Shown here piece by piece: positions 47,238-64,000 of a DNA stretch of 64,000 bases. Numbering within the stretch: the stretch's first letter is position 1; every line of letters begins with the position of its first letter. The notes under the pieces were generated by a model. It was not told the DNA's origin, searched no databases, and saw only the letters and a list, made by a program, of their open reading frames with translations. The stretch is from contig NZ_CADFDB010000001.1 in the NCBI RefSeq assembly GCF_902832845.1, positions 496,001-560,000 on the forward strand, given 5' to 3'. The translations under genes and the position numbers were made by a program. Source of the stretch: Burkholderia metallica (GTDB lineage Bacteria > Pseudomonadota > Gammaproteobacteria > Burkholderiales > Burkholderiaceae).

Positions 47238-47396
47238 GGGTTCCGGTTTCCGGTGCGCGACCGGCTCGCGGCCGCACATCGATCGCGCGTGCGCGCCAGC
47301 GTCTGTGTGCCGATCCCTGGAAATCTCCCGGTATTCGGGCGACTCGATGCGCCGATGCGCGGATGCGTCGTCGGCAAACGACATCAGTACTCCCCA

Positions 47397-47430
47397 AGAC
47401 AAAAGCGGCCCGCGGGCCGCTTTTGTCTTA
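47397..47430. terminator. Bidirectional terminator between the IclR and porin genes
   Basis: Perfect 34-bp palindrome. Each arm is AAGACAAAAGCGGCCCG or its complement; the outer A/T tracts serve as T-runs in both directions. It lies between convergent genes, 159 bp after iclR and 25 bp after the porin stop. Confidence 0.88.
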
Positions 47431-47455
47431 TCGGGCGCCGAACGCCCGATCCCGT

Positions 47456-48535
47456 TCAGAACGAGTGGTGAATCCCGGTGAGCACGATCACCTGGTTCGC
47501 GGTGCTCGACACGCCTGCCGTGAAGAACGCGGCCTTCGCGCCGCCCGACCCGTGTTCGTACAACACGTTCGCATAGAGTTGCGTGCGCTTCGACAGCGCA
47601 TAGATGTCGCCGAGCTCGACCTGCGTCCAGCGGCGGCCGGCCAGCGTCGTGGTCGCCGCGCCGCCCGCGATCGTGTTGAACGCGCTGCTGCGGTAGTTCA
47701 CGCCCGCATCGTAGCTCTGGAACGTGTCCGAAAAACCGTTCGACTGCATCTTCGTGCGCGTGTACAGGCCATGCACAAGGAAGTCGCCGAACTGGTAGGA
47801 CGCGCCCGCACCGATGTTCTCCACCTTGCTCGCTGTGTAGCCGTTCGCGGTGTTCTGCCCCTGGAACGACGTGATGCCGGTCGTGCCGATCAGGATCGAG
47901 CGGTCGTGCTCGTTCGAGTACACGGCCGACGCCTTGAACGGCCCGTTCGCATAATTCAGCGCGACGCCGACCGATTTGCCGGTCGAGAAGTTCGTCGTGT
48001 TGCCGAGCGCCATCGTCGCCGCGGCCGAGAAGCCCGCGAAGGCCGGCGACCGGTACTTGACCGAGTTGTTGTACGGCACGTTGCCGGTCGCGGCGAGACC
48101 GTCGATGTTGCCTGGGTGGAACGCGTACCAGCTCATCGCGAGATAGGCCGTGCTGAGCGGATCGAGATAGTCGAACGACAGCGGCGTCTGGCGGCCGAGC
48201 GTCAGCGTGCCGTAGCGCTCCGAACCGAGGCCGACGAATGCCGCGCGGTTCCAGATCGTGTTCGCGGTCGCGAACTGCCCGTTGTTCGTATAGAAGCCGT
48301 TTTCGAGCTGGAAGATCGCCGACAGGCCGTCGCCGAGGTCTTCCTTGCCCTTCAGGCCCCACCGGTCGGGCTGCGTATTGCCCTGGATCATCGCCCACTT
48401 CGCATGGCCGCCGACGTTGTTCACGTAAGCGACCCCCGCATCGAGGCTGCCGTACAGCACCACGCTGCTCTGCGCCCACGCGCCCGACGCGGCGCCCAAT
48501 CCGATCATTGCTGCTGCTACCGCTTGCTTGACCAT
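47456..48535 (-). CDS. Gram-negative porin linked to the aromatic catabolic operon
   Basis: 359-residue outer-membrane porin. ATG 48535 after CAGGAGATCAA; signal peptide MVKQAVAAAMIGLGAASGAWA, then QSSVVLYGSLDAGVAYVNN. Family features: DRWGLKGKEDLGDGLSAIFQLENGF, RAAFVGLGSERYGTLTLGRQTP and C-terminal Phe (VLTGIHHSF). Codon use is ordinary GC-rich, unlike the major porin at 27936, so it is likely an inducible, substrate-linked pore. Its promoter is divergent from the catabolic operon and carries the same IclR-type palindrome, implying co-induction and a role in substrate entry. Confidence 0.93.
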   Translation of the reverse strand: MVKQAVAAAMIGLGAASGAWAQSSVVLYGSLDAGVAYVNNVGGHAKWAMIQGNTQPDRWGLKGKEDLGDGLSAIFQLENGFYTNNGQFATANTIWNRAAFVGLGSERYGTLTLGRQTPLSFDYLDPLSTAYLAMSWYAFHPGNIDGLAATGNVPYNNSVKYRSPAFAGFSAAATMALGNTTNFSTGKSVGVALNYANGPFKASAVYSNEHDRSILIGTTGITSFQGQNTANGYTASKVENIGAGASYQFGDFLVHGLYTRTKMQSNGFSDTFQSYDAGVNYRSSAFNTIAGGAATTTLAGRRWTQVELGDIYALSKRTQLYANVLYEHGSGGAKAAFFTAGVSSTANQVIVLTGIHHSF

Positions 48536-48637
48536 TTGATCTCCTGAATCTCCGTACCTGATGAAAACGTGCCATGGCGGCATGCACGGAAGAACGGCCG
48601 GCCATCGTGCGTTTTCGCCATCGAGCGGGCATTTTTA

Positions 48638-48655
48638 TGTTCCATATAAGGAACA
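48638..48655. promoter_or_regulatory. IclR-type operator at the porin promoter
   Basis: TGTTCC-ATATAA-GGAACA, perfect 6-bp arms with 6-bp spacer. Relative to the predicted porin start (near 48669) it covers about +14 to +31, a repressor-roadblock position. Identical arms occur at 48922-48939. Confidence 0.75.
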
Positions 48656-48675
48656 ATGTGCCTCTGATGGAATGG

Positions 48676-48703
48676 AGTATAGGGGTGTGCAGCGCCGAAT
48701 CAA
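48676..48703 (-). promoter_or_regulatory. Predicted promoter of the catabolic-operon porin
   Basis: On the minus strand: -35 TTGATT (48698-48703), 16-bp spacer, -10 TATACT (48676-48681). The IclR-type palindrome follows about 20 bp downstream. Confidence 0.6.
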
Positions 48704-48876
48704 AAATAAATTTTTCGGGACGGATGAGCTTGCGGTGCGACCCGGCTGCGCGGAGCGAATCCGTGAAAAAGTCGGTAAATCCCTGCCGAATAACAAAAAA
48801 TTACATTCGATAAGGTAGGGCGGCGGGTTCGTTGAGCGCGCGGTCGGTGTTTTCCCTAGGACATGCAGCTTTTTGT

Positions 48877-48904
48877 TTTACTCGTGGAAAGTCGCTCCTA
48901 TAAT
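48877..48904 (+). promoter_or_regulatory. Predicted promoter of the aromatic catabolic operon
   Basis: -35 TTTACT (48877-48882), 16-bp spacer, -10 TATAAT (48899-48904, perfect consensus). The predicted start is near 48911 and the IclR-type box covers about +11 to +28. First gene begins at 48981 behind AGAAGGAAGGG. Confidence 0.65.
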
Positions 48905-48921
48905 CACCATCCATAAACTGC

Positions 48922-48939
48922 TGTTCCGGATATGGAACA
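48922..48939. promoter_or_regulatory. IclR-type operator at the catabolic operon promoter
   Basis: TGTTCC-GGATAT-GGAACA, same arms and spacing as the porin box at 48638; a further half-site GGAACA follows at 48944. It lies just downstream of the -10 element. Confidence 0.75.
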
Positions 48940-48980
48940 AATCGGAACAAACCGAGCGTCGCTCAGAAGGAAGGGTTGAG

Positions 48981-49298
48981 ATGTCTGAACAATGGATTTG
49001 CGCCGGACACGCCGGCGCGCTGTCGGAAGACACGCCGATCGAGTTCAAGCGGACCGACGGCGTCGAAATCGGGATCTACCGCGTCGGCGACGACGTGTAT
49101 GCGCTCGAGAACGTATGTCCGCATGCGTACGCGCTGCTGACGCAGGGGTTCGTCGACGAAGGCACCGTCGAATGCCCGCTGCACGAGGCCGTGTTCGACA
49201 TCAGGACGGGCGAATGCCTGAAGGGTCCGGGCGGGCGCGCACTGAAGCAGTACGCGGTGCGCCTCGCCGGCGAGGAAATCCAGATCAAGGTGGAATGA
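48981..49298 (+). CDS. Rieske [2Fe-2S] ferredoxin component of a ring-hydroxylating oxygenase
   Basis: 105-residue small electron carrier. ATG 48981 follows AAGGAAGGGTTGAG. Cluster ligands: CPHAYALL (Cys and His near residues 46 and 48) and CPLHEAVFD (Cys and His near 65 and 68), giving CxH...CxxH. The fold starts with WICAGHAGALSEDTPIEF as in biphenyl/naphthalene-type ferredoxins. First gene of the operon; it should shuttle electrons from the FAD reductase (59635) to the oxygenase (49666). The next gene starts 1 bp after its stop. Confidence 0.92.
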   Translation: MSEQWICAGHAGALSEDTPIEFKRTDGVEIGIYRVGDDVYALENVCPHAYALLTQGFVDEGTVECPLHEAVFDIRTGECLKGPGGRALKQYAVRLAGEEIQIKVE

Positions 49299-49299
49299 C

Positions 49300-49611
49300 A
49301 TGAAAGAAGCGACCGTCAACTTCAATCCCTTCCTGAAGCCGTGGGTGGCGCCGCAGCCGAACAACGTCGCGGGCAAGGGGCAGATCGAGATCCCCGGCCA
49401 GGTCGAGAACCAGGTCTGGCAGAACCGCAAGGCCGCGCCGACCCAGTACGAAAACGACCTCGGCGACGCGCTCGAACGCGTGTTCGAAGCCGGCGCGACC
49501 GAGCTGGACGACGTCGTCGCGGGCCTGAACCGCATCGGCTTCCGCGCGCCGGACGGCACCGCGTGGACCGCCGAGCGCTTCCGCGCCGAAATGGCCTCGC
49601 TCGCGGAGTGA
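49300..49611 (+). CDS. Small recombinase-like HTH protein of Rieske operons
   Basis: 103-residue protein. N-terminal extension with FNPFLKPWVAPQPNNVAGKGQIEIPGQVENQVWQ (Pro/Asn-rich), then a compact C-terminal domain, LGDALERVFEAGATELDDVVAGLNRIGFRAPDGTAWTAERF. That domain resembles the HTH of serine recombinases (a recombinase-like helix-turn-helix family). No catalytic recombinase domain is present. Placed 1 bp after the ferredoxin gene and before the oxygenase gene, so it is an integral operon member. Role unknown: DNA-binding regulator or protein partner of the oxygenase are both possible. Confidence 0.7.
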   Translation: MKEATVNFNPFLKPWVAPQPNNVAGKGQIEIPGQVENQVWQNRKAAPTQYENDLGDALERVFEAGATELDDVVAGLNRIGFRAPDGTAWTAERFRAEMASLAE

Positions 49612-49665
49612 GCGCGCTGACGCGCTGACCGCCGAGCCGACGACAACCGCATCCGGAGCACACTG

Positions 49666-50736
49666 ATGACGTCCCCCGCACAACACGCAGTCCAACACGA
49701 CCCGGTCCGTGACTATCTCGACCGCGGCATCAAGAACTACTGGTATCCCGTCGCGCCGAGCTGGCAGGTGTCGAATGCGCCTGTCGGCCTCACGCGCCTG
49801 TCCGAGCAGATCGTGCTGTGGCGCGATCACGACGGCAAGGTCCATGCGCTCGAAGATCGCTGCCCGCACCGCGGCGCGCGCCTGTCGCTCGGCTGGAACC
49901 TCGGCGGCAACATCGCCTGCTGGTATCACGGCATCGAAGTTGACGGCGGCGGCACGGTCAACCGCGTGCCGGCCGTGTCGAACTGTCCGCTCGAAGGCAC
50001 GAAGTGCGTGAAGTCGTACCCGGTCGAAGAGAAGGCCGGCGCGATCTTCCTGTGGTTCGGCGACGAAGCGCACGGCGAGCCGGCGCCGCTGAACCTGCCG
50101 GAAGAACTGGTCGCCGACGAATACGCGCACTTCCTGTGCGTGTCGAACTGGAAGTGCAATTACCAGTACGCGATCGACAACGTGATGGACCCGATGCACG
50201 GTGCGTACCTGCATGCCACCTCACACTCGATGGCCGAAGGCGACAAGCAGGCCGACATGCGCGTGCGCAAGACGGAAACGGGCCTGATGTTCGAGAAGGT
50301 CGGCCAGCGCGACGTGAACTTCGACTGGGTCGAGCTCGGCGAAACGGGCTGCCTGTGGATGCGCCTCGCGATTCCGTACAAGCAGAAGTTCGGCCCGGGC
50401 GGCAACTTCGGGATCATCGGCTTCGCGACGCCGGTCGACGGCGACCACTGCCAGGTCTACTTCTGGCGCACGCGCAAGGTCAGCGGCTGGCAGCGCGACG
50501 TGTGGCGCTTCATGTATCGCAACCGCCTCGAGGGGCTGCACTGGGACGTGCTCGAGCAGGACCGCTACGTCCTCGAAAGCCTCGCGCCGCAGGCCCGCGA
50601 TCACGAATACCTGTATCAGCACGACGTCGGCATCACGCGCGTGCGCCGGATGCTGCGCCAGCGTGCGCAGGAGCATCTCTCCGCGCTCGACGCGCATCGT
50701 GCGGCGCAGGCCGCGGCGGAGCCGTCGAATGGCTGA
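49666..50736 (+). CDS. Aromatic ring-hydroxylating oxygenase alpha subunit (Rieske type)
   Basis: 356-residue oxygenase. The N-terminal Rieske domain has CPHRGARL (Cys/His near residues 64-66) and CWYHGIEV (Cys/His near 85-88). The catalytic domain has the mononuclear iron site NVMDPMHGAYLHATSH (two His near 177-182), with a third ligand expected near QDRYVLES. No beta-subunit gene is present in the operon, so an alpha-only enzyme like O-demethylases or LigX-type oxygenases is expected. It would attack the aromatic substrate using the ferredoxin and reductase encoded at the ends of the operon. Substrate unknown. Confidence 0.9.
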   Translation: MTSPAQHAVQHDPVRDYLDRGIKNYWYPVAPSWQVSNAPVGLTRLSEQIVLWRDHDGKVHALEDRCPHRGARLSLGWNLGGNIACWYHGIEVDGGGTVNRVPAVSNCPLEGTKCVKSYPVEEKAGAIFLWFGDEAHGEPAPLNLPEELVADEYAHFLCVSNWKCNYQYAIDNVMDPMHGAYLHATSHSMAEGDKQADMRVRKTETGLMFEKVGQRDVNFDWVELGETGCLWMRLAIPYKQKFGPGGNFGIIGFATPVDGDHCQVYFWRTRKVSGWQRDVWRFMYRNRLEGLHWDVLEQDRYVLESLAPQARDHEYLYQHDVGITRVRRMLRQRAQEHLSALDAHRAAQAAAEPSNG

Positions 50737-51499
50737 GCGCGCTCCGGTCGTGTCGCTCGCGGGGCGCCGCGTGCTCGTCACGGGCGGCGCGCGCGGGCTC
50801 GGCGCGGCGTTCGTGACGGCGCTCGTCGAAGCGGGCGCGCAGGTCGCGTTCGGCGACGTGCTGGCCGACGAAGGCCGTGCGCTTGCCGCGCAACTCGCCG
50901 AAGCGGGCCACGTCGCGCATTTCTTTGCACTCGATCTCGCCGATCCGGCGAGCGTCGACGCGTTCGTCGCGCAGGGCGCGGCGGCGCTCGGCGGCATCGA
51001 CGCGCTGATCAACAACGCGGCGATCACGAACTCGGGCGGCAAGCTGTCGACGGAGCTCGACGTGTCGACCTGGGACGCCGTGATGAACGTGAACGTGCGC
51101 GGCGTGTGGCTCGTCAGCAATGCGGCGCTGCCGCACCTCGCGCAGTCGGGCCGCGGCGCGATCGTGAACCTCGCATCGGACACCGCGCTGTGGGGCGCGC
51201 CGAAGCTGCTCGCGTACGTCGCCAGCAAGGGTGCAGTGATCGCGATGACGCATGCGCAGGCGCGCGAATTCGGCGCGCACGGCGTGACGGTCAACGCGAT
51301 CGCGCCGGGGCTCACCGAAGTCGAGGCGACCGCCTACGTGCCGGCCGAGCGCCACGCGTTCTACATGCAGGGCCGCGCGCTGACGCGCGCGCAGGTGCCC
51401 GACGACGTGACGGGCCCGGTGCTGTTCCTGCTGTCGGACGGCGCGCGCTTCGTGACGGGGCAGTTGCTGCCGGTCAACGGCGGCTTCGTGATGAATTGA
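50729..51499 (+). CDS. Short-chain dehydrogenase/reductase, catabolic
   Basis: 256-residue classical SDR starting 8 bp inside the oxygenase gene. Cofactor motif TGGARGLG at about residues 19-26, DLADP, NNAAITNSGG at about 94-103, Ser in NLASDTALWG, active site YVASKGAV near residue 161 with both Tyr and Lys present. C-terminus FVTGQLLPVNGGFVMN. A role such as cis-dihydrodiol or hydroxy-intermediate dehydrogenation directly after the oxygenase is a reasonable inference from position. Confidence 0.87.
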   Translation: MAERAPVVSLAGRRVLVTGGARGLGAAFVTALVEAGAQVAFGDVLADEGRALAAQLAEAGHVAHFFALDLADPASVDAFVAQGAAALGGIDALINNAAITNSGGKLSTELDVSTWDAVMNVNVRGVWLVSNAALPHLAQSGRGAIVNLASDTALWGAPKLLAYVASKGAVIAMTHAQAREFGAHGVTVNAIAPGLTEVEATAYVPAERHAFYMQGRALTRAQVPDDVTGPVLFLLSDGARFVTGQLLPVNGGFVMN

Positions 51500-51536
51500 T
51501 TGAACTGAAGTTTTCACTCTGATGAAGGAGAGGACG

Positions 51537-52064
51537 ATGGCGGACGCCGATCTCGAACGCAAGTCGTGGGACCAGCCGGAAGGCGCAAGCTTCAACGACT
51601 GGATGGAAGGGCGCGTGGCGCGCTATGCGACGCGTCGCTACGACTGGGACGCACTGAAGTTCCAGGCCGACTACGACCCGAAGTACCGCCGCGCGCAGAT
51701 GCGCTACGTCGGCACTGGCGGCACGGGCGTCGCGAAGGACGTCAACACGGTGCCGGCCGGCGGCTTCACGTTCTCGACGATGGTCATCCCGGCCGGCAAC
51801 ATCGGCCCGAGCCACATCCACATGGACGTCGAGGAAATCTTCTTCGTGCTGCGCGGCAAGATGAAGGTGATCTGCGAGCGTGACGGCGAGACGTGGGAAG
51901 CGGTCCTCGGCGAGCGCGACCTGATCTCGGTGCCGCCGGGCGTGTATCGCACGGAAATCAACATCGGCGAGGAAGATGCGCTGATGTGCGTGATGCTCGG
52001 TTCGCCGAAGCCGGTCACGCCGACGTATCCGCCCGATTCGCCGCTCGCGAAGATCAAGCGTTGA
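51537..52064 (+). CDS. Cupin-domain protein
   Basis: 175-residue single-domain cupin; ATG 51537 after GAAGGAGAGGACG. The cupin metal motif is IGPSHIHMDVEEIFFVLRGKMKV (two His and Glu near residues 100-106). The second motif, ERDLISVPPGVYRTEIN, lacks the usual motif-2 His (Tyr-Arg there). An N-terminal helical arm precedes the barrel. Cupins in catabolic operons can be dioxygenases, isomerases or lyases; none can be singled out here. Confidence 0.82.
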   Translation: MADADLERKSWDQPEGASFNDWMEGRVARYATRRYDWDALKFQADYDPKYRRAQMRYVGTGGTGVAKDVNTVPAGGFTFSTMVIPAGNIGPSHIHMDVEEIFFVLRGKMKVICERDGETWEAVLGERDLISVPPGVYRTEINIGEEDALMCVMLGSPKPVTPTYPPDSPLAKIKR

Positions 52065-52081
52065 GACGGAGCGGCTGAGCA

Positions 52082-52978
52082 ATGAGTGTCATCGACAAAC
52101 GTGAACGCGACCGCACCGCGGCGTTCGCCGCGCTGCTCGGGCAGTTTCCCGAACAGCGTTGCGCGGCCGGCGCAGCGGGCACGATCGGCTACCGTGAGGC
52201 CGGCGCGCAGCATGCGGGCCGCGCGCTGCCCGTCGTGCTGCTGCACGGCATCGGGTCGGGCGCCGCATCGTGGGTGCGCCAGCTCGACACGCTCGGCGCA
52301 TCGCGGCGCGTGCTCGCGTGGGATGCGCCCGGTTACGGCGTGTCGACGCCGGTGCACGGCGAGTCGCCGGCCGCCGCCGATTACGCGGCGTCGCTGAACG
52401 CGTGGCTCGAGGCACTCGGCATCGAACGCTGCGTGCTGGTCGGCCACTCGCTCGGCGCGATCATCGCGGGCGGTCTCGCCCGCGCGATGCCCGCGCGGAT
52501 CGCCGGCCTGCTGCTGGTGTCGCCCGCGGGCGGCTACGGCGGCGCGCCCGCCGAAACGCGCGAATCGCGTCGCGACGCGCGGCTCGCGATGCTCGCCGCA
52601 CTCGGCCCGGCGGGGCTCGCCGAGCAGCGCAGCGGCAACATGCTGTCTGGTTTCGCGAACGAGGAGGCGCGCGCGTGGGTGCGCTGGAACATGGCGCGCA
52701 TCGTGCCGGCCGGCTACGCGCAGGCCACGCATCTGCTCGCGAACGCCGATCTCGCGGCCGATCTCGCCGGTTTTCGCGGCCGCACGGCCGTGGCCGTCGG
52801 CGCGAACGACGCGATCACGCCGCCTGCCGCGTGCGAGCGGATCGCCGCGGCCGCGCACGTCGGGCTGCAGGTGATTCCGCAAGCCGGTCATGCCGGCTAT
52901 GTCGAGGCACCGGCCGTTTATTCCGCACTGATCGACACGTTCTGCCGTCAGTGCGACTCGCAGCGGGGGCTGGCATGA
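52082..52978 (+). CDS. Alpha/beta hydrolase (possible meta-cleavage product hydrolase)
   Basis: 298-residue alpha/beta-hydrolase. Oxyanion motif VVLLHGIGSGAASW at about residues 51-64, nucleophile VGHSLGAII (Ser near 123), acid in GANDAITPP (Asp near 241) and catalytic His in AGHAGYVEAP (near 268). The pattern resembles HsaD/BphD-type C-C hydrolases and related esterases. Together with the VOC-type dioxygenase downstream it could cleave a ring-fission product; that pairing is inference. Confidence 0.85.
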   Translation: MSVIDKRERDRTAAFAALLGQFPEQRCAAGAAGTIGYREAGAQHAGRALPVVLLHGIGSGAASWVRQLDTLGASRRVLAWDAPGYGVSTPVHGESPAAADYAASLNAWLEALGIERCVLVGHSLGAIIAGGLARAMPARIAGLLLVSPAGGYGGAPAETRESRRDARLAMLAALGPAGLAEQRSGNMLSGFANEEARAWVRWNMARIVPAGYAQATHLLANADLAADLAGFRGRTAVAVGANDAITPPAACERIAAAAHVGLQVIPQAGHAGYVEAPAVYSALIDTFCRQCDSQRGLA

Positions 52979-53832
52979 ACGAACCGCTGAAACAACCCGA
53001 ACTCGAGAACGCGAGGGCCGAAGCCAGTTACGTCGTGCCCGGCCTCGAACGCGGGCTGCGGATCCTCGCGGAATTCTCGCCGCGCGAGCCCGTGCTCGGT
53101 GCGCCCGAGCTGTCGAAGCGGCTCGGCATTCCGCGCACGACGGTGTTCCGTCTGCTGCAGACGCTCGAATCGCTCGGCTTCCTCGAGCGCGCGGACAAGG
53201 ATCGCAACTACAAGCTCGGCATCGCCGTGCTGCGGCTCGGCTTCGAATACCTGAGCTCGCTGGAGCTGACCGATCTCGGCCTGCCGGTGATCGAGAGCCT
53301 GCGCGATGCGACCGGCTTCACGACGCACATCGTGATCCGCGACGGCCGCGACGTGGTGTTCGTCGCGAAGGCGCAGAGCCAGGCGCCGGTGTTCAGCTCG
53401 ATCCGCGTGAACGTCGGCACGCGCCTGCCCGCGCATGCGACGACGCACGGCCACGTGCTGATGGGCGACCTGTCGTTGAAGGAACTGCAAGCGCTGTATC
53501 CGGAAGGCACACTGAACCGGATGACGAACGCGACGCCGGAAACGGTCGACGCGCTGTATGCGGTGATCCGCGAGGATGCGCTGCGCGGCTACGGCGTCAG
53601 CAACTCGTCGTTCGAGCGCGGCATTTCGGTGGTCACGGCGCCGGTGCGCAACGAAACGCAGCGGATCGTCGCGTGCATCACGGTGACGGTGCCGCGGCCG
53701 GAAATCGACGCGGCGCTGATCGCGGACGGCCTGATCGACAAGGTGCAGCGCGCGGCGGCAGAACTGTCGCGGCGGCTCAATTACCGCTCGGACGACGAGC
53801 ACACGTTCATGAAAGCATTAGGACTCCGATGA
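52975..53832 (+). CDS. IclR family transcriptional regulator (second paralogue, inside the operon)
   Basis: 285-residue regulator starting in ATGA overlap with the hydrolase gene. It aligns along its length with the IclR at 46344: YVVPGLERGLRILAEFSPREP, PELSKRLGIPRTTVFRLLQTLESLGFLER, RDGRDVVFVAKAQSQ, VGTRLPAHATTHGHVLMGDL, SFERGISVVTAPVRNET. Most HTH recognition residues are shared, so both may bind the same TGTTCC-N6-GGAACA box. Being inside the operon, its dose rises with induction. This implies feedback regulation. Confidence 0.92.
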   Translation: MNEPLKQPELENARAEASYVVPGLERGLRILAEFSPREPVLGAPELSKRLGIPRTTVFRLLQTLESLGFLERADKDRNYKLGIAVLRLGFEYLSSLELTDLGLPVIESLRDATGFTTHIVIRDGRDVVFVAKAQSQAPVFSSIRVNVGTRLPAHATTHGHVLMGDLSLKELQALYPEGTLNRMTNATPETVDALYAVIREDALRGYGVSNSSFERGISVVTAPVRNETQRIVACITVTVPRPEIDAALIADGLIDKVQRAAAELSRRLNYRSDDEHTFMKALGLR

Positions 53833-54618
53833 TTCAGATCGATCTGACCGGGCAGGTGGCGGTGGTGACGGGCGGTTCGTCCGGCATCGGCCTCGCGACC
53901 GCCGAACGGTTTCTGCAGGCGGGCGCATCGGTCGCGATTTGCGGCCGGGACGGCGAGCGCCTCGCGCGCGCCGAAGCGATGCTCGTCGAAAAATATCCGG
54001 GCGCGCAATTGCTCGCCGTGCGCTGCAACGTGCTCGACGAAGCCGATGTGGCTGCGTTCGCGCAGGCGGTGTCCGCGCGCTTCGGCCGCGCCGACATGCT
54101 GGTCAACAACGCCGGCCAGGGCCGCGTATCGACCTTCGCCGACACGACCGACGACGCGTGGCGCGAAGAGCTCGAACTGAAGTATTTCAGCATCATCCGC
54201 CCGACGCGCGCGTTCCTGCCGCTGCTGCGCGACGCGCAGGCGCCGACGATCACCTGCGTGAACTCGCTGCTCGCGCTGCAGCCGGAGCCGCACATGGTCG
54301 CGACGTCGTCGGCGCGCGCGGGCGTGCTGAGCCTCGTGAAGTCGCTCGCGACCGAACTCGCGCCGCAGCGCATCCGCGTGAACTCGATCCTGATCGGCAT
54401 CGTCGAGTCGGGGCAGTGGCGCCGCCGCTACGAAGCGCAGGCGCAGGCCGGCGAAAGCTGGGACGACTGGACGGGCGCGCTCGCCCGCAAGAAGAACATT
54501 CCGCTGAACCGCTTCGGCAAGCCTGACGAGGCCGCCTGGGCGCTCTTTTATCTCGCAACGCATCTGTCGTCCTACACGACGGGCAGCCATATCGACGTTT
54601 CTGGAGGCTTTGCACGCC

Positions 54619-54626
<8 letters not shown>
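53829..54626 (+). CDS. SDR-fold protein with non-canonical active site
   Basis: 265-residue SDR-fold protein. The cofactor motif TGGSSGIGLATAERF (about 14-28), NNAGQGRV and the Ser segment CVNSLLALQPEP are normal. At the expected YxxxK position the sequence reads MVATSSARAGVLSLVKSL: Tyr is Thr and Lys is Arg. The C-terminus YTTGSHIDVSGGF is normal. It may bind NAD(P) without classical reductase chemistry, or use a different catalytic set. It overlaps iclR by 4 bp and the ThDP-enzyme gene by 8 bp. Confidence 0.8.
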
Positions 54627-57094
<2,468 letters not shown>

Positions 57095-57166
57095 CCGGGC
57101 CATTGAATGCCCGCCCGCGCCACGGCGCGGGCGAGCCTGCAGAGACAGATTTGTGGGACTTGTGAC

Positions 57167-58657
57167 ATGACTCCTTTCGATACGCGCCTCGTACCCGACG
57201 GCAACATCCTGATCGGCGGCGAATGGCGGCGCGGCCGTGGCGCGCCTTACGCGAGCATCTATCCGGCCGACCAGTCGCTGAACATGGAAGTGTCGACCGC
57301 GGACGCGCAAGACGCGGCCGACGCCGTCGTGGCCGCCGATGCCGCGTGGCGCCGCGCCGACTGGGCCGGGCTGAAGCCGCATCTGCGCGCGCAGGTGCTG
57401 TACCGCATCGCCGATCTGATCATGCAGCGCCACGAAGCGCTCGCGAACCTGCAGCGTCGCGACAACGGCAAGCCAATCGGCGAGACGCGCGTGCTGGTGG
57501 CGAGCGCCGCGAACACGTTCCGCTATTTCGCGGCGTGCCTCGAAACGCTCGACGAAGAGCTGACGCCGTCGCGCGGCGACTACCTGACGATGAGCGTGTA
57601 CGAACCGATCGGCGTGATCGCGGCGATCACGCCGTGGAATTCGCCGATCGCGTCCGACGCGCAGAAGCTCGCGCCGGCGCTCGCGGGCGGCAACGCGGTG
57701 GTGTTGAAGCCGGCCGAAGTCACGCCGCTCGTGTCGCTCGCGCTGGCGCGCATCTGCGAGGAAGCCGGCGTGCCGAAGGGCGTGCTGAGCGTGCTGCCGG
57801 GCAAGGGCTCGGTGATCGGCGACGTGCTCGTGCGGCATCCGCTGGTGAAGAAGGTGTCGTTTACCGGCGGCACCGAAGTGGGCCGCGGCATCGCGCGCAT
57901 CGCGGCCGAGAAGCTGATGCCCGTGTCGCTCGAACTCGGCGGCAAGTCGCCGACGATCGTATGCGACGACGCCAATCTCGATCACGCGGTCAACGGCGTG
58001 CTGTACGGCATCTTCAGCTCGTCGGGCGAAGCGTGCATCGCGGGCTCACGGCTGTTCGTGCAGCGCTCGGTGTACGACGAATTCATGCGACGCCTGGTGG
58101 CCGGCGCCCGCAAGCTGCGCGTGGGCGACCCGACGCGGCCCGACACGCAGATGGGGCCGCTGATCACCGCGAAGCATCGCGAATCGGTGGAGCGCTACGT
58201 CGCGCTCGGCCTCGAGGAAGGCGGCCGCCTGCTGTGCGGCGGCGAGCGGCCGTCGGGCGACGGCCGCGAAGACGGCTTCTTCTATCAGCCGACGATTCTC
58301 GAAGGTCTGCCGAACAGCGCGCGCATCTGCCAGGAAGAAATCTTCGGGCCGGTGCTCGTCGCGATGCCGTTCGACGACGAAGCGTCGCTGATCGTGGAGG
58401 CGAACGACAGCGTGTTCGGTCTTGCGGCCGGCATCTGGACGCGCGACTACAAGCGCGCATGGCGCATCGCGCGTGCGCTGGAGACGGGCACCGTCTGGAT
58501 CAACACGTACAAGCTGTTTTCGATCTCCACGCCGTTCTCGGGCTGGAAGGAGAGCGGGATGGGGCGCGAGAAGGGGCGCCTCGGTATCCGCGAGTACATG
58601 CAGCAGAAGAGCCTCTACTGGGGATTGAACGACGCGCCGCTGCCGTGGGCGAACTGA
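57167..58657 (+). CDS. NAD(P)-dependent aldehyde dehydrogenase
   Basis: 496-residue ALDH; ATG 57167. It shows EPIGVIAAITPWNSP (Asn of the oxyanion hole, near 163), KPAEVTPL, the cofactor loop VSFTGGTEVGRGIA near 238, LELGGKSP with catalytic Glu (near 262) and SSGEACIAGSR with the catalytic Cys (near 296). EEIFGPVL and PFSGWKESGMGREKG complete the family pattern. It would oxidise an aldehyde formed in the lower pathway, plausibly the product of the ThDP enzyme. Gap to the preceding gene 72 bp, to the next 18 bp. Confidence 0.93.
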   Translation: MTPFDTRLVPDGNILIGGEWRRGRGAPYASIYPADQSLNMEVSTADAQDAADAVVAADAAWRRADWAGLKPHLRAQVLYRIADLIMQRHEALANLQRRDNGKPIGETRVLVASAANTFRYFAACLETLDEELTPSRGDYLTMSVYEPIGVIAAITPWNSPIASDAQKLAPALAGGNAVVLKPAEVTPLVSLALARICEEAGVPKGVLSVLPGKGSVIGDVLVRHPLVKKVSFTGGTEVGRGIARIAAEKLMPVSLELGGKSPTIVCDDANLDHAVNGVLYGIFSSSGEACIAGSRLFVQRSVYDEFMRRLVAGARKLRVGDPTRPDTQMGPLITAKHRESVERYVALGLEEGGRLLCGGERPSGDGREDGFFYQPTILEGLPNSARICQEEIFGPVLVAMPFDDEASLIVEANDSVFGLAAGIWTRDYKRAWRIARALETGTVWINTYKLFSISTPFSGWKESGMGREKGRLGIREYMQQKSLYWGLNDAPLPWAN

Positions 58658-58675
58658 GCGAAGGGGAATGACGCA

Positions 58676-59638
58676 ATGAGCATTTTGGGAATCGAGCAGA
58701 TCACGTACGGCGTCGACGATCTCGCGACCTGCCGGCGCTTTTTCGCCGACTGGGGGCTGAAGGAAGTCGAGCACGACGACACGCAAGCACGCTTCGAGAC
58801 GCTGAACGGCTGCACCGTGCTGGTCGTCAAGGCCGACGATCCGGCGCTGCCGCCCGCGTTCGAAGCGGGCCCGACGGTGCGCGAAGTCACGTGGGGCGTC
58901 GCGACGCAGCAGGAACTCGACGCGCTGCGCGGCAAGCTCGCCGGCCAGCCCGGCTTTTACGCACGGAAGGACGCGCTCGGCTGTACCGACCCGAACGGGA
59001 TGGCGATTCGCATCGAAGTCACGCGCAAGCGTGAACTCGACATCACCGGCTCGCCGTCGAACGTGTGGGGCCGCACGCTGCGCGTCGACCAGCCGAGCCC
59101 GATCTACGCACGCGCGGAGCCGGTCGAGGTCGGCCACGTGGTGTTCTTCACGAACTGCCTCGACGCACAGGAAAAGTTCTATCACGAGCTGCTCGGCTTC
59201 GAGACGTCCGACCGTTATCCGGGCCGCGGTGCGTTCATGCGCTGCGCGCCGCACGGCGGCCACCACGACCTGTTCCTGCTCGCGCTGCCGAACGGCAAAC
59301 GCGGCCTGAACCATGTCGCGTTCACCGTGCGCGATATTCACGAAGTGTTCGGCGGCGGCCTGCACATCGACCGCTGCGGCTGGCAAACGCAACTCGGCCC
59401 GGGACGCCACCCGGTGTCGTCCGCGTACTTCTGGTACTTCCAGAATCCGGCCGGCGGCCTGATCGAGTACTACGCGGACGAGGACATGCTGACGCCCGAG
59501 TGGCAGCCGCGCGAATTCGAACCGGGCCCGACCGTGTTCGCCGAATGGGCCGTCGACGGCGGCCTCGACGGCAACACGCGCCGGCAGAAGGACGCGAAGG
59601 CGCCGGAAGGCAAGTTCATGACGGAGCGCAAATCGTGA
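58676..59638 (+). CDS. VOC-superfamily ring-cleavage (extradiol-type) dioxygenase
   Basis: 320-residue two-module VOC protein, the size of type I extradiol dioxygenases. First module: IEQITYGVDDLATCRRFFADWGL. Second module: VEVGHVVFFTNCLDAQEKFYHELLGFE with a His ligand near residue 159. LNHVAFTVRDIHEVF has the second His (near 221), and GLIEYYADEDML the Glu (near 268), the 2-His-1-carboxylate set. It would cleave a catecholic or hydroxylated intermediate beside a hydroxyl. Its stop overlaps the GTG start of the reductase gene. Confidence 0.82.
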   Translation: MSILGIEQITYGVDDLATCRRFFADWGLKEVEHDDTQARFETLNGCTVLVVKADDPALPPAFEAGPTVREVTWGVATQQELDALRGKLAGQPGFYARKDALGCTDPNGMAIRIEVTRKRELDITGSPSNVWGRTLRVDQPSPIYARAEPVEVGHVVFFTNCLDAQEKFYHELLGFETSDRYPGRGAFMRCAPHGGHHDLFLLALPNGKRGLNHVAFTVRDIHEVFGGGLHIDRCGWQTQLGPGRHPVSSAYFWYFQNPAGGLIEYYADEDMLTPEWQPREFEPGPTVFAEWAVDGGLDGNTRRQKDAKAPEGKFMTERKS

Positions 59639-60879
59639 GCGAAGGGACCACACAGGAGCAGGCCGCGCCCGGCACGGTCGTCGTGATCGGCGGCGGCCAG
59701 GCGGCCGGCTGGGTGCTGAAGACGCTGCGCGCGGAAGGCTACGCGGGCCGCCTCGTGATGATCGCGGACGAACCGCATCTGCCGTACGAGCGCCCGCCGC
59801 TGTCGAAGGCCGTGCTGGCCGGCGACGCCGACATCGACACCGTGCGCGTCGTGCGCCCGGACGAATTCGACACGCTGAACGTCGAAGCGTGGCAGCCGGA
59901 ACGCGCCGCGTCGATCGACCGCGCCCGCCGCGTCGTGAAAACCGCAAGCGGCCGCGAGATCGAATACGACCGCCTCGTGATCGCGACCGGCGGCACGTCG
60001 CGCCGCCTGCCGGATTCGATCGTCAGGACGCCGAACCTGCATTACCTGCGCACGCTCGACGAAGCGTCCGCGCTTGGCGAGAAGCTGCGCGCGAGCCGGC
60101 GCGTGCTCGTGATCGGCGGCGGCTGGATCGGCCTCGAAGTCGCGGCGACCGCGCGCAAGCTCGGCGTCGACGCCGTGGTGGTCGAAGGGGCGCCGCGGCT
60201 GTGCGGCCGCTCGGTGCCGCAGATCGTGTCGGATTTCCTGCTCGACCTGCATCGCGCGAACGGCGTCGACGTGCGGCTCGGTGCGGCACTCGCGTCGCTC
60301 GACGCGCAGCCGGGCGATGCGTCGAAGGTCCGCGCGACGCTTGCCGACGGCACGACGATCGACGCCGATTTCGCGGTGGCCGGCATCGGCATCGCGCTGA
60401 ACGCGTCGCTCGCGAGCGACGCGGGGCTGGCCGTCGACGACGGCATAGTCGTCGACGAATTCGGCGCGACGAGCGACCCGGCGATCTTCGCGTGCGGCGA
60501 CGTCGCGAACCATCACAACGGCTGGCTGAAGCGGCGCGTGCGGCTCGAATCGTGGGCCAATGCGCAGAACCAGGCGATCGCGGCCGCGAAGGCGGTGCTA
60601 GGCGTGCGTGCGCCGTACGCGGAGATTCCGTGGTTCTGGTCCGATCAGTACGACGTGAACCTGCAGATCCTCGGCGATCTGCCGGCCGATGCGCAGCTCG
60701 TCGTGCGCGGCGAGCTGGCCGCGCGTCGGGCGACGTTGTTTTTCGTGGGCGAAGGACATGTGAGAGGTGTCATCGCCGTCAACAACGCGCGCGAGCTGAA
60801 ACTCGCGCGCAAGTGGATGAACCAGGGCCGGGCAGTCGATACGGAAGCCCTGGCAGACACGAGCAAGGCCTTGGCCTGA
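59635..60879 (+). CDS. FAD-dependent ferredoxin reductase of the oxygenase system
   Basis: 414-residue rubredoxin/ferredoxin-reductase-type flavoprotein with GTG start in overlap (GTGA). The FAD motif VVVIGGGQAAGWVLKTLRAEG is at about 15-35, followed by DEPHLPYERPPLSKAVLAG. The NADH motif VLVIGGGWIGLEVAATARKLG is near 155-175, GIGIALN and FACGDVANHHN near 285. The C-terminus PWFWSDQYDVNLQILG is diagnostic. It should transfer electrons from NADH to the operon's Rieske ferredoxin, giving a three-component oxygenase with genes at both ends of the operon. Confidence 0.93.
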   Translation: MSEGTTQEQAAPGTVVVIGGGQAAGWVLKTLRAEGYAGRLVMIADEPHLPYERPPLSKAVLAGDADIDTVRVVRPDEFDTLNVEAWQPERAASIDRARRVVKTASGREIEYDRLVIATGGTSRRLPDSIVRTPNLHYLRTLDEASALGEKLRASRRVLVIGGGWIGLEVAATARKLGVDAVVVEGAPRLCGRSVPQIVSDFLLDLHRANGVDVRLGAALASLDAQPGDASKVRATLADGTTIDADFAVAGIGIALNASLASDAGLAVDDGIVVDEFGATSDPAIFACGDVANHHNGWLKRRVRLESWANAQNQAIAAAKAVLGVRAPYAEIPWFWSDQYDVNLQILGDLPADAQLVVRGELAARRATLFFVGEGHVRGVIAVNNARELKLARKWMNQGRAVDTEALADTSKALA

Positions 60880-60909
60880 CCGCGCGACGAGACACAGGAG
60901 ACTCCCCGC

Positions 60910-62310
60910 ATGAGCACTTTCGACAACGTCGTGGCCGGACGCGCCACGATGGAAGCTGCCGCCTCCACGCCCGGCGCGATCATCGCGCGGCTCGAGCGGC
61001 TTCCTGCCAACGCGATGCAGATCCGTGCGCGCGTGCTGATCGGCACCGCAACGTTCTTCGACGGCTTCGACGTGATCACGATCGCGGCGACGCTGCCGCT
61101 GCTGATTCACAAATGGGGGCTGTCGCCGACGCAGATCGGCATGCTGATCGCGTCCGGCGCGATCGGCCAGCTGATCGGCGCCTTCCTGTTTCCCGCGCTG
61201 TCCGAGAAACACGGCCGCGTGAAGGCGATCGCGTGGAGTTCGGCCGTGATCGGCGTCACGAGCATCGCATGCGGCTTCGCGCCGACGTTCGAGATCTTCG
61301 TGCTGCTGCGGATCTTGCAGGGCCTCGGCCTCGGCGGCGAGCTGCCGGTCGCCGCGACGTACATCAACGAGATCACGCGCGCCCATGGCCGCGGCCGTTT
61401 CGTGCTGCTGTACGAGATCGTGTTCCCGATCGGCCTGCTCGTGTCGATGGCGCTCGGCGCATGGCTCGTGCCGCGCTTCGGCTGGGAAATCATGTACTTC
61501 GTCGGCGGGCTGCCGCTGATCCTGTCGCTGGTGCTTACGCGCCTCGTGCCGGAGTCGCCGCGCTGGCTCGCGTCGCGCGGGCGTCTGGCCGAAGCAGGGC
61601 GGGCGGTCGGCGCGTTCGAAACGTCGGTGCGCGGCGAACTGCCGCCCGTCACGCAGGCGGCCGCGTTCGACGAGATGGTGCGCCAGCATCCGAAGCGCAA
61701 GATGAGCGACCTGTTCAGCGCCGCGTATCGCAAGCGCACGCTCGCGGTCGCGACGTTGTGGGCGACCTGTGGGTTCATCCAGTACGGGCTGTCGACGTGG
61801 CTGCCGACGATCTACAAGAACTTCTATCACGCGCCGCTGCAGCTCGCGCTGAACCTCGCGGTGATCGGCTCGGTGATGGGCGTGCTCGGGTCGCTGGCGT
61901 CCGCGCTGCTCGTCGACAAGCTCGGCCGCAAGCCGGTGATCGTCTGGTCGTTCGTGCTGTGCGCGCTGTCGTTGGCGCTCGCGGGCATCTATCACGCGTC
62001 GTCGGTGTACGTCGTTGCGCTTTTCTGCTCGCTGTCGCTCGGGTTGATGGCGTCGGGGTTCATTACCGCGTACGTCTATACGCCGGAGCAGTATCCGACG
62101 AGCATCCGCGCGTCGGGCTGCGGGCTCGGCAGCGCGTGGCTGAAGATCGCATCGTTCGTCGCGCCGATGGTCGTGCCGCACGCGATTATCGGCGGGAACC
62201 TCGCGCCGGCGTTCTACCTGATCGGCGTCGTGCCGCTGATCGCGGCGCTGACCGTGCACTTCGTCGGCATCGAGACGAAGGGGAAGGTGCTCGAAGCGCT
62301 GGAAGCGTAA
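60910..62310 (+). CDS. MFS transporter, aromatic acid:H+ symporter (AAHS) type
   Basis: 466-residue inner-membrane transporter with about 12 transmembrane segments. Features: ATFFDGFDVITIAATLPLL in TM1 with the Asp-rich DGFD motif typical of AAHS/PcaK. LSEKHGRVKAIAW is loop 2-3 and RILQGLGLGGELPVAATYINE is TM4. GFIQYGLSTWLPTIYKNFY is TM7 and ETKGKVLEAL the C-terminal tail. It probably imports the aromatic substrate. Last gene of the operon, 30 bp after the reductase gene, followed by a strong terminator. Confidence 0.9.
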   Translation: MSTFDNVVAGRATMEAAASTPGAIIARLERLPANAMQIRARVLIGTATFFDGFDVITIAATLPLLIHKWGLSPTQIGMLIASGAIGQLIGAFLFPALSEKHGRVKAIAWSSAVIGVTSIACGFAPTFEIFVLLRILQGLGLGGELPVAATYINEITRAHGRGRFVLLYEIVFPIGLLVSMALGAWLVPRFGWEIMYFVGGLPLILSLVLTRLVPESPRWLASRGRLAEAGRAVGAFETSVRGELPPVTQAAAFDEMVRQHPKRKMSDLFSAAYRKRTLAVATLWATCGFIQYGLSTWLPTIYKNFYHAPLQLALNLAVIGSVMGVLGSLASALLVDKLGRKPVIVWSFVLCALSLALAGIYHASSVYVVALFCSLSLGLMASGFITAYVYTPEQYPTSIRASGCGLGSAWLKIASFVAPMVVPHAIIGGNLAPAFYLIGVVPLIAALTVHFVGIETKGKVLEALEA

Positions 62311-62340
62311 GCGCGGCCGGTGGTAGCGGATGACGTGACG

Positions 62341-62369
62341 AGGCCCGGGCGGATGTCCGGGCCTTTTTG
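62341..62369 (+). terminator. Rho-independent terminator of the catabolic operon
   Basis: AGGCCCGG (62341-62348) / CCGGGCCT (62357-62364) with 8-nt loop, then TTTTTG. It lies 30 bp after the MFS stop and marks the end of the 14-gene operon. Confidence 0.88.
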
Positions 62370-62480
62370 TCTGGCGCGCCGCGGGTGCCGGTGCAGAGCG
62401 CGTCGTGCGAACGCGCGCAGTGACCGGCTTGCGGCTTGCGTGTTCTAATTCACGCTTCCGTTTTCAGAACGACTGTCGCC

Positions 62481-63032
62481 ATGCCCGTGTTCGAACCCGT
62501 CACGCTGAGTACCTCCCGCCTCCTCCTGCGGCCGCTGCGCGAAGCCGACGCGCACGCGTTCTTCGAGATCTGGTCGGATGTGGAAGCGATGCGCTATTTC
62601 TCGTTCGCGCCGATGACGCGCGTCGAACAGGCCGTCGAGCGCGTCGCGCGCAACCTGACGACGTCCGCGAGCGGACAGGACCTGATCTGCGTGCTCGAAC
62701 TGCGGGAAACCGGCGAAGCGCTCGGCGAATGCGCGCTGTTCCATGCGAACGACCAATGCCGGCGCGCCGAGATCGGCTTCAGCCTGCGGCGCGCGTTCTG
62801 GCGCGGCGGCTACATGCGCGAGGCGGCATCGGCCGTGCTCGATCACGCGTTCGGCACGCTGCGGCTGAACCGGATTGAAGCCGATATCGATCCGCGCAAC
62901 GTCGCATCGGCGCAGTTGCTCGAACGGCTCGGGTTCACGCGAGAAGGGGTGCTGCGCGAACGCTGGATCGTCGGCGACGAAGTGTCGGACAGCGCGCTGT
63001 ACGGGTTGCTGGCGAGCGACCGGCGCGCGTGA
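62481..63032 (+). CDS. GNAT acetyltransferase, RimJ/RimL type
   Basis: 183-residue N-acetyltransferase; ATG 62481 (an upstream frame to 62436 lacks family sequence). Start TLSTSRLLLRPLREADAHAFFEIWSD, then LGECALFH, IGFSLRRAFWRGGYMREAASAVLDHAF (acetyl-CoA loop RAFWRGGY) and IEADIDPRNVASAQLLERLGFTREGVLRERW. Typical of ribosomal-protein-alanine or small-molecule acetyltransferases. It has an independent context after the operon terminator. Confidence 0.88.
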   Translation: MPVFEPVTLSTSRLLLRPLREADAHAFFEIWSDVEAMRYFSFAPMTRVEQAVERVARNLTTSASGQDLICVLELRETGEALGECALFHANDQCRRAEIGFSLRRAFWRGGYMREAASAVLDHAFGTLRLNRIEADIDPRNVASAQLLERLGFTREGVLRERWIVGDEVSDSALYGLLASDRRA

Positions 63033-63072
63033 TGCGCAGGCATGCGGGGCACTTGGGCGCCGGCGCGATGAC

Positions 63073-63999: not shown

Positions 64000-64000
64000 C

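Follow-up and report, generated by a model that had tools for sequence, protein, structure and literature searches.

A conserved catabolic gene cassette of Burkholderia metallica that may encode kynurenate degradation

Introduction

A 14-gene operon of Burkholderia metallica is read here, with moderate confidence and from its sequence, as a substrate-induced unit for the import and complete breakdown of kynurenate (4-hydroxyquinoline-2-carboxylate) along the quinoline pathway of the 1960s. The sequence itself shows which genes the unit holds, that their catalytic motifs are intact, how they are conserved and grouped into modules, and that its two palindromes occur nowhere else in the genome. 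Animals, plants, and microbes all form kynurenate and xanthurenate, two bioactive products of tryptophan. To our knowledge, sixty years of biochemistry on their bacterial breakdown have left it without assigned genes, and the kynurenate pathway is known as biochemistry only. Its enzymes were reportedly described by Taniuchi and Hayaishi (EC 1.14.99.2, 1.3.1.18, and 1.13.11.10). The citing papers describe the pathway as proposed in Pseudomonas. No paper assigning kynurenate-degradation genes was found among the titles and abstract openings of the open-licence papers listed, which is weak evidence of absence.

If the kynurenate reading is true, the gene set would serve as a marker for kynurenate removers in gut, soil, insects, and infection, spanning Klebsiella, Acinetobacter, Serratia, Enterobacter, and Burkholderia relatives. 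It would also put sequences to orphan enzymes, explain what the puzzling aspartate dehydrogenase does in catabolism, and tell what the HTH_62 family is for.

Results and Discussion

Operon layout and control region

The window, meaning the whole stretch of 64,000 nucleotides that was analysed, carries 14 intact genes at 48981-62310, all on the + strand and head to tail, with no internal stops in an ORF scan. Neighbouring genes overlap by 4 or 8 bases at six of the 13 junctions; at the others they lie 1-72 bases apart. A sigma-70-like promoter (48877-48904, +; 10/12 matches) lies upstream, and an intrinsic terminator (62340-62365, +) with an 11-pair stem and a T tail lies downstream. Promoter-like sites are weak evidence alone, since 46500-64000 holds two, one on each strand, where shuffled sequence gives a mean of 1.2. 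Terminator-like sites number 7 (shuffle mean 10.5), and the stem at 62340-62365 is the longest by far. No Rfam match reached gathering scores in 48600-62500. Relatives of the gene set co-occur across phyla, indicating that the grouping is more than chance. A tightly packed set of 14 genes with overlapping junctions, a promoter-like site, and a terminator had been described from the sequence before, and this description is confirmed.

The boundaries then drawn, 48981-62310, are too narrow: upstream, the unit also takes in a divergent porin (47456-48583, -; PF13609, E 4e-47), a second IclR gene, and two palindromes. The operon itself encodes an IclR regulator as gene 7 (52975-53832, +; PF01614/PF09339), whose top NCBIfam match, PcaR/PcaU/PobR, is under cut-off. 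Used as tblastn query, it matched 46398-47213 with 65% identity, within an ORF for a second IclR-family regulator (46344-47237, +); an upstream IclR gene with 66-69% identity also occurs in L043, L044, L069, L166, L168, and L169. The palindromes, TGTTCC-N6-GGAACA, are putative IclR operators: one lies on the porin side (48638-48655; shuffle mean 0.00), and the other, located by motif scan, lies just 3' of the -10 box (48922-48939). These are the only two copies in the whole 7.55 Mb genome. A GTTCC-N6-GGAAC pair is present in 19 of the 20 same-genus loci examined, and L030 has none.

Entry-module proteins and importer

The first gene encodes a Rieske-type ferredoxin (48981-49298; PF00355; top NCBIfam match AndAb, under cut-off), the electron carrier for the oxygenase. 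It is followed by a small HTH_62 protein (49300-49611; PF20552, E 4e-30), which scores 104.1 bits against a gathering score of 27 and which we propose as an oxygenase accessory. Of 299 genomes, 9 have the Rieske gene, and these same 9 give the strong HTH_62 matches; a regulatory role is disfavoured, as the protein tracks the oxygenase and not the IclR genes. The Rieske oxygenase alpha subunit (49666-50736; PF00355 and VanA_C), a putative kynurenate 7,8-dioxygenase, has C66, H68, C85, H88, D175, H178, H183, and D299 invariant among 15 sequences. No Rieske beta-subunit family was detected by Pfam or NCBIfam among the 14 proteins, making this an alpha-only oxygenase. A short-chain dehydrogenase, SDR1 (50729-51499; adh_short_C2), is the proposed cis-dihydrodiol dehydrogenase. 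The operon ends with a ferredoxin reductase (59635-60879; Pyr_redox_2 and Reductase_C) and an MFS importer resembling aromatic acid/H+ symporters (60910-62310). For the importer, TIGR00895 (AAHS) is the best NCBIfam match, at 225.9 bits below the cut-off of 418.55.

Several characterized oxygenase systems were compared with the unit. The iad system for indole-3-acetate in Variovorax is alike in being a Rieske operon for a tryptophan-derived N-heteroaromatic acid, but IadD is described as working with the small subunit IadE and the FMN-type reductase IadC (PMC10374108), whereas the present oxygenase is alpha-only with a ferredoxin and an FAD-type reductase. The iad reading was rejected on this subunit make-up, a two-subunit (alpha/beta) oxygenase being absent here. 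Anthranilate 1,2-dioxygenase (andA) has a distantly related ferredoxin and reductase, and was rejected since all curated cut-offs were missed (AndAb 90.3 of 150 bits, AndAa 364 of 650, AndAc 19.1 of 750). Among the closest solved Rieske proteins are the terminal components of dicamba O-demethylase (DdmC, 93 bits) and carbazole 1,9a-dioxygenase (74 bits), with the best stretch spanning only about residues 20-195. Both belong to other operons and act on other substrates.

Lower-module proteins

Seven + strand genes form the lower module. The VOC enzyme (58676-59638; PF00903) appears to have a type I extradiol ring-cleavage site, with H154, H213, and E264 as well as H197 and Y254 invariant among six sequences. 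The cupin (51522-52064; PF07883), a candidate dihydroxypicolinate ring-opening oxygenase, has a weak quercetinase match (E 2e-4) and invariant H98, H100, and E104 among 13 sequences. An alpha/beta hydrolase (52082-52978; PF12697), with Ser123, Asp243, and His270 invariant among six sequences, may cleave an amide or a C-C bond, and SDR2 (53829-54626; NF005468, 484 bits, cut-off 266) may reduce a ring-fission enone. The cupin, hydrolase, and SDR2 received their proposed roles by elimination. The ThDP enzyme (54619-56286; NF005470, 973.6 bits, cut-off 495) is a putative 2-oxoacid decarboxylase, and the aldehyde dehydrogenase (57167-58657, alternative start 57107; PF00171) carries its Cys and Glu motifs. 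The seventh protein (56279-57094), proposed for an iminosuccinate/aspartate step, exceeds the equivalog model for L-aspartate dehydrogenase of the PRK13303 type (NF009826, 567.7 bits, cut-off 479). Unlike the usual L-aspartate dehydrogenase, it is set in a catabolic operon and not among NAD biosynthesis genes. Pfam and NCBIfam bore out every family named in the preliminary description, with the MFS protein closest to AAHS though below its cut-off; its inventory stood for these members and had left IclR (gene 7) and HTH_62 (gene 2) unnamed.

Conservation and module structure

The gene combination had been thought peculiar, which the comparison does not support: it is a widely conserved cassette. 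All 14 genes have relatives, reordered, in Klebsiella, Serratia, and Acinetobacter, near-complete sets occur in Novosphingobium, Paracoccus, and Streptomyces, and hosts of near-intact sets include many soil, plant, insect, and hospital bacteria. The loci compared are the 80 kept from one search based on aspartate dehydrogenase and ranked by likeness to the Klebsiella enzyme. Module counts rest on tblastn, because in some of the GC-rich loci a simple gene caller overlooked genes or put them in the wrong frame.

The comparison divides the cassette into a swappable entry module (Rieske oxygenase, HTH_62, SDR1, ferredoxin, and reductase) and a fixed lower module of seven core genes (VOC, cupin, hydrolase, SDR2, ThDP enzyme, aspartate dehydrogenase, and aldehyde dehydrogenase). 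At least six of the seven core genes are present in 68 of the 80 loci. Among these 68, 59 have Rieske, SDR1, and HTH_62, two (L146 and L159) are cut at contig ends, and seven have a flavin monooxygenase instead, where the flavin gene reaches the edge of the examined stretch in five of the seven, so that a Rieske gene may lie farther out. SDR1 (>44% identity) was found in 60 of 60 loci with the Rieske gene and in none of the 20 without it, and this co-travelling is the behaviour expected of a dihydrodiol dehydrogenase. The adjacent aldehyde dehydrogenase is absent from L164 and L165, and the ThDP marker PRK07064 stands without other cluster genes in the stretches examined of L213 and, on short contigs, L214 and L215.

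Clear flavin genes were counted in 8 of the 80 loci, with four Acinetobacter fragments at locus edges left out. Seven halophile loci carry a flavin monooxygenase and a TRAP importer in the position of the entry module, six of them with an arylsulfatase, a layout checked in L137 and L149. The L192 flavin enzyme is 63% identical to its L137 counterpart, and its nearest PDB entry is 6-hydroxynicotinate 3-monooxygenase; such a NicC-like enzyme is what one would expect if a hydroxylated N-heteroaromatic, for example xanthurenate, were ortho-hydroxylated. A cupin doing the same job as the flavin monooxygenase was considered and discarded, as all seven flavin-bearing, Rieske-less loci retain the cupin. 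Molybdenum hydroxylases, commonly used in N-heterocycle breakdown, adjoin the Rieske gene in L209 and L210; in L072 they follow the VOC gene and in L166 the MFS gene.

It is rather unlikely, yet possible, that the same chemistry and modules serve another N-heterobicyclic acid or phenol, such as quinaldate, xanthurenate alone, a 4-quinolone, quinoline-4-carboxylate, or a plant alkaloid. The molybdenum hydroxylases, the NicC-like enzyme, and the aspartate dehydrogenase indicate just an N-heteroaromatic, and substrates may differ among Rieske subtypes, which are about 52-55% or at least 58% identical to the window protein (side by side once, in G343) and 45-48% in alphaproteobacteria. Such substrates account less directly for the decarboxylase-aldehyde dehydrogenase pair and for a C4 amino-diacid product, and the broad host range suggests a common natural compound. 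A ring substrate free of nitrogen is improbable. Here aspartate dehydrogenase would serve amino-group or NADPH balance, or would take as substrate a product of ring fission, for example an aminated muconate formed in situ. In favour, enzymes of the Rieske, VOC, and hydrolase families act mostly on N-free aromatics, and the dehydrogenase can stand alone, as 10 of the 80 loci have it with no other cluster gene. Against this, it is a fixed core gene from Streptomyces to Klebsiella, and molybdenum hydroxylases and RidA recur among the cluster variants. The earlier suggestion of a nitrogen-containing aromatic is supported.

Proposed kynurenate pathway

Dioxygenase, dihydrodiol dehydrogenase, extradiol dioxygenase, 2-oxoacid decarboxylase, and aldehyde dehydrogenase, as judged by families and motifs only, all occur in one unit. 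Dioxygenation, dihydrodiol dehydrogenation, 8,8a extradiol cleavage, reduction, 2-oxoacid decarboxylation, and aldehyde oxidation map onto its gene families, and the enzyme classes fit the old kynurenate pathway one reaction after another. The molybdenum hydroxylases of four related loci and the presence of the core in the Delftia-like genome G196 speak for this reading, as may the tryptophan dioxygenase and kynureninase near the cluster of G208. Substrate, reactions, step order, and regulation are all predicted as follows. Kynurenate would enter through the porin and the MFS carrier, and the Rieske oxygenase, supplied by reductase and ferredoxin and assisted by HTH_62, would add O2 across C7-C8. 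Re-aromatisation by SDR1 would give 7,8-dihydroxykynurenate, in which the VOC enzyme would cut the 8,8a bond to leave a pyridine ring that bears a 2-oxoacid side chain. The side-chain double bond would be reduced by SDR2, the 2-oxoacid decarboxylated by the ThDP enzyme, and the aldehyde oxidized by the aldehyde dehydrogenase to 5-(2-carboxyethyl)-4,6-dihydroxypicolinate. Porin and operon may be controlled by the IclR protein or proteins at the two palindromes.

The end of the pathway, ring opening and aspartate, is a proposal of the present analysis. Cupin and hydrolase would open and split the pyridine ring. One fragment would be a C5 diacid, 2-oxoglutarate in the oxygenolytic case or glutarate in the hydrolytic case, and the other a C4 amino-diacid (iminosuccinate/aminofumarate). 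Aspartate dehydrogenase would convert the C4 fragment to aspartate, or aspartate to oxaloacetate and ammonia. Oxygen at C4 of the picolinate would yield an aspartate skeleton and a C5 diacid, thus accounting for the aspartate dehydrogenase. The preliminary description of an aromatic catabolic operon with oxygenation, ring fission, 2-oxoacid decarboxylation, and aldehyde oxidation holds up; its placing of oxygenation before fission stands, and hydrolysis is now placed after decarboxylation and aldehyde oxidation.

That the cluster makes or tailors a quinoline product, such as a xanthurenate-derived siderophore, is highly improbable. Xanthurenate is a siderophore precursor in Pseudomonas (PMC5897657), but the unit has ring-cleavage, decarboxylation, and importer-like genes, and no adenylation or sulfurylase family occurs among its 14 proteins.

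A wider version of the kynurenate proposal is tentative, and we hold it as doubtful. The cassette would represent the missing quinoline-branch genes of tryptophan catabolism with interchangeable entries: Rieske, HTH_62, and SDR1 for kynurenate; flavin monooxygenase with sulfatase or glycosidase for xanthurenate or its conjugates; and molybdenum hydroxylase for quinaldate. HTH_62, now catalogued among recombinase-like DNA-binding domains, would be the obligate partner of a distinct Rieske oxygenase, and the cupin would open dihydroxypicolinate by an undescribed reaction to 2-oxoglutarate and iminosuccinate, the latter captured as aspartate by aspartate dehydrogenase.

Genomic context and tryptophan catabolism

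The Delftia-like genome G196 carries all seven core genes together with Rieske, HTH_62, and SDR1, and its porin is identical to Omp32 at 293 of 298 residues. Pseudomonas acidovorans, now named Delftia acidovorans, is the organism that we take to be the classic one of the quinoline pathway; G196 need not be the 1960s strain.

Tryptophan 2,3-dioxygenase occurs in 10 of 15 cluster genomes vs 83 of 381 others, a difference confounded by lineage and genome size. A search of 23 genomes, of which 18 bear the cluster, placed the gene close to it in G208 alone, with tryptophan dioxygenase and kynureninase 9.2 kb away; kynureninase leads to anthranilate. In G388 the dioxygenase gene sits among genes that read as anthranilyl-CoA type. 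Neither of the two Klebsiella-kind cluster genomes (G166 and G279) has tryptophan 2,3-dioxygenase, and these would therefore need external kynurenate. A family scan of about 20 flanking proteins revealed no kynurenine aminotransferase beside a cluster. The biochemically studied aspartate dehydrogenase PA3505 of P. aeruginosa may lie in the same cluster, a point given no weight here. The Acinetobacter cluster genes are mucin-induced, which is not specific as to substrate.

Operon structure and distribution

The window has a GC content of 67.5% and belongs to a genome of 7.55 Mb. The operon comprises 14 intact forward-strand genes spanning 48981-62310, with 4- or 8-base overlaps at six junctions. 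A promoter-like site (48877-48904) lies on its 5' side and a terminator-like hairpin (62340-62365) on its 3' side. Family matches bore out the genes named in the preliminary description, which did not name two members, the HTH_62 protein (49300-49611) and an internal IclR regulator (52975-53832). Catalytic residues are present in the Rieske oxygenase, the VOC enzyme, the hydrolase and the ALDH.

The Rieske gene was found at 86% identity or more in 33 of the 37 same-genus genomes examined, and its best named matches are Burkholderia records (95-97%). Across the phylum, a Rieske relative occurs in 9 of 299 genomes (E 1e-60) and the ThDP marker PRK07064 in 15 of 398; the order set yielded the marker in 10 of 250 genomes. 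PRK07064 is not perfectly specific, since three loci of the order set (L213, L214 and L215, two of them on short contigs) carry it without other cluster genes in the stretch covered. Relatives of all 14 genes are present in Caballeronia in the same order as in the window, and in Acinetobacter baumannii and Klebsiella pneumoniae in a changed order, with an MFS protein only 21-22% identical. The cluster is also present in the type strain of Acinetobacter baylyi (L129), a species used in the laboratory. Streptomyces has most of the gene set, with a weak VOC match. The Novosphingobium set and Paracoccus gave no ferredoxin match; in the latter, ABC importers replace the MFS gene, the VOC is divergent (25%) and the cupin match is weak. 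One Acinetobacter and one Klebsiella locus (L066, L067) are PLSDB plasmid records with chromosomal-type neighbours (pgaBCD and def; speA, metK and gshB), and may be misfiled or integrated replicons.

Named genomes were surveyed with an aspartate dehydrogenase (AspDH) alignment headed by a Klebsiella protein, and the best 80 of at least 592 encoding stretches were compared. At least six of the seven core genes (VOC, cupin, hydrolase, SDR2, ThDP, AspDH and ALDH) were present in 68 of these 80 loci. A short contig with the entry module and five core genes (L116) was counted apart, and 11 loci had neither the core set nor the entry module, ten of them carrying AspDH alone. Where AspDH relatives lacked all the remaining core genes under the identity threshold applied (L114, L124, L150, L151, L153-L156, L158, L160), they probably serve another role.

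Exchangeable entry modules

There is good support for a cassette that breaks down N-heteroaromatic compounds and whose entry modules are exchangeable, a reading that we consider very probable. Among the best 80 of at least 592 loci, the genes for the Rieske oxygenase, SDR1 (the proposed cis-dihydrodiol dehydrogenase) and HTH_62 occur together in 59 of the 68 that bear the core, and all three are absent from the other nine. Two of the nine (L146, L159) stop at contig borders; the remaining seven are of Halomonas type or from Saccharospirillum and have a flavin monooxygenase instead, its gene extending past the edge of the stretch covered in five. The complete alternative operon, seen in Saccharospirillum (L137), consists of the flavin monooxygenase, three TRAP importer genes, an arylsulfatase (CxPxR motif), an IclR gene and the lower genes VOC, cupin, hydrolase, SDR2, AspDH, ALDH and ThDP, and a Rieske version from Halomonas (L118) has the same lower half. 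The two entries are not exclusive: L162, one of the 80, has the flavin gene beside a Rieske gene, as do L073, L190 and L194, among other loci, and four Acinetobacter loci of the 80 contain edge fragments of the flavin gene. The best solved relative of one flavin enzyme (L192) is 6-hydroxynicotinate 3-monooxygenase (287 bits). The simplest reading of these gene contents is that two routes would converge on one catechol, by dioxygenation and dehydrogenation of an unsubstituted ring or by hydroxylation of its phenol.

Strong HTH_62 matches (E <1e-10) were obtained in exactly the 9 of 299 genomes with the Rieske gene, and five weaker ones (E 1e-6 to 2e-5) in longer frames of five other genomes among the 299. 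HTH_62 and Rieske genes are also present in the same 60 of the 80 named loci (best 80 of at least 592). Although these genomes are non-independent, the tight link suits an oxygenase partner better than a free regulator.

Two Rieske subtypes were seen, at least 58% and about 52-55% identical to that of the window (L040 in genome G343; L042 and L043 in genome G304; L073), and both may occur in one genome. The 52-55% subtype is often accompanied by a VanB-type reductase and RidA, a member of the imine deaminase family; RidA was found in L040, L042, L073, L162 and L163, all with this second subtype.

Arylsulfatase and TRAP importer genes accompany the flavin monooxygenase version in L137, L149 and related Halomonas-type loci, and a Novosphingobium locus (L068) carries a GH3 glycosidase. 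Sulfate and glucoside conjugates, such as those of xanthurenate, are known, and these genes suggest the use of conjugates of this kind.

Proposed kynurenate degradation

Several loci carry molybdenum hydroxylases, which, like RidA, hint at an N-heteroaromatic substrate. In L072, a xanthine-dehydrogenase-type enzyme is encoded behind the VOC gene; L209 and L210 have relatives of it (64-65% identity) adjoining the Rieske gene. Among solved proteins, the L072 enzyme is closest to 4-hydroxybenzoyl-CoA reductase, with a match to quinoline 2-oxidoreductase as well. A second type (2Fe-2S subunit, molybdopterin subunit and cytochrome c) lies behind the MFS gene in L166. Serratia marcescens produces kynurenate with a molybdenum enzyme, quinaldate 4-oxidoreductase, and seven Serratia loci contain the cluster (best 80 of at least 592).

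In the 'quinoline' pathway of the 1960s papers and KEGG, kynurenate is converted via the 7,8-dihydrodiol to 7,8-dihydroxykynurenate, which undergoes 8,8a extradiol cleavage. The product, a carboxy-oxo-propenyl dihydroxypicolinate, is then reduced, and the last steps are decarboxylation to a formylethyl compound and oxidation to a carboxyethyl compound. These steps would be covered by the Rieske system, SDR1, VOC, SDR2, ThDP and ALDH. By carbon counting, the carboxyl, C2, C3, C4 and nitrogen of the remaining picolinate make up an aspartate skeleton, and C5, C6 and the side chain a C5 diacid. With the other steps covered, this leaves the cupin and hydrolase, which would open the ring, and AspDH, which would handle the C4 fragment. 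Kynurenate is the best single reading for the Rieske substrate, and a moderately probable one. According to PMC5610271, which cites Taniuchi and Hayaishi 1963, a route of degradation had been suggested for P. fluorescens, and kynurenate degradation with glutamate synthesis by Pseudomonas extracts is mentioned where PMC11354673 cites Horibata et al. 1961. The cassette may give genes to orphan enzymes.

Link to tryptophan catabolism

One genome with the core genes (G196) encodes a porin identical at 293 of 298 residues to Omp32, a Delftia acidovorans protein. This species, for which Pseudomonas acidovorans is an old name, is the standard example of an organism that uses the quinoline pathway. 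On a contig other than the cluster's (C35, L189), G196 has two tryptophan 2,3-dioxygenase (TDO) genes separated by 8 kb, and the interval contains kynureninase and arylformamidase genes. In G208, a distance of 9.2 kb separates TDO and kynureninase from the first gene of the cluster; kynureninase scored 260.7 bits (cut-off 246.4) and TDO 380.4, just under its cut-off of 390.7. TDO was present in 10 of 15 cluster genomes versus 83 of 381 others (Fisher p 3.5e-4), and within the order in 7 of 7 versus 13 of 26 (p 0.018); these counts assume that the TDO and cluster genome samples are identical, and kinship and genome size confound both comparisons. TDO was not found in the cluster genomes G166 and G279, nor in G004, G059 and G238; in the first two, the cluster genes that were compared share 80-100% identity with those of Klebsiella.

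From annotations and order, we infer that certain A1S_ tags denote the A. baumannii copy of the cluster. A1S_0954, 0956, 0957 and 0958 were up 2.2- to 3.7-fold in a mucin study (PMC5757984), and another study (PMC3758355) lists A1S_0945, 0946 and 0956 as showing expression in biofilm alone, with low values; the relevant parts of neither paper name a substrate for these genes.

Upstream region

Upstream of the operon lie a divergent porin gene (47456-48583) and another IclR gene (46344-47237), which shares 65% identity with the IclR gene inside the operon. The exact 18-bp palindrome TGTTCC-N6-GGAACA occurs twice in the window (48638 and 48922; shuffle mean 0.00), both times between porin and operon, and the rest of the genome has no further copy. 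Of 20 short loci from the same genus, 19 have a pair of the shorter GTTCC-N6-GGAAC sites and one (L030) has none. The search for this form was negative in L072 and L196, and in the one locus tested for each of Klebsiella (L067), Acinetobacter (L066), Halomonas (L118) and Saccharospirillum (L137). Two sites each were found in L043 and L044, and at least one in L069, L073, L162, L163, L166, L168, L169 and L195. Judged from sequence, the palindromes are putative operators of the IclR protein or proteins for porin and operon. The region 46344-48583, placed outside the operon in the preliminary description, appears to belong to the same regulon.
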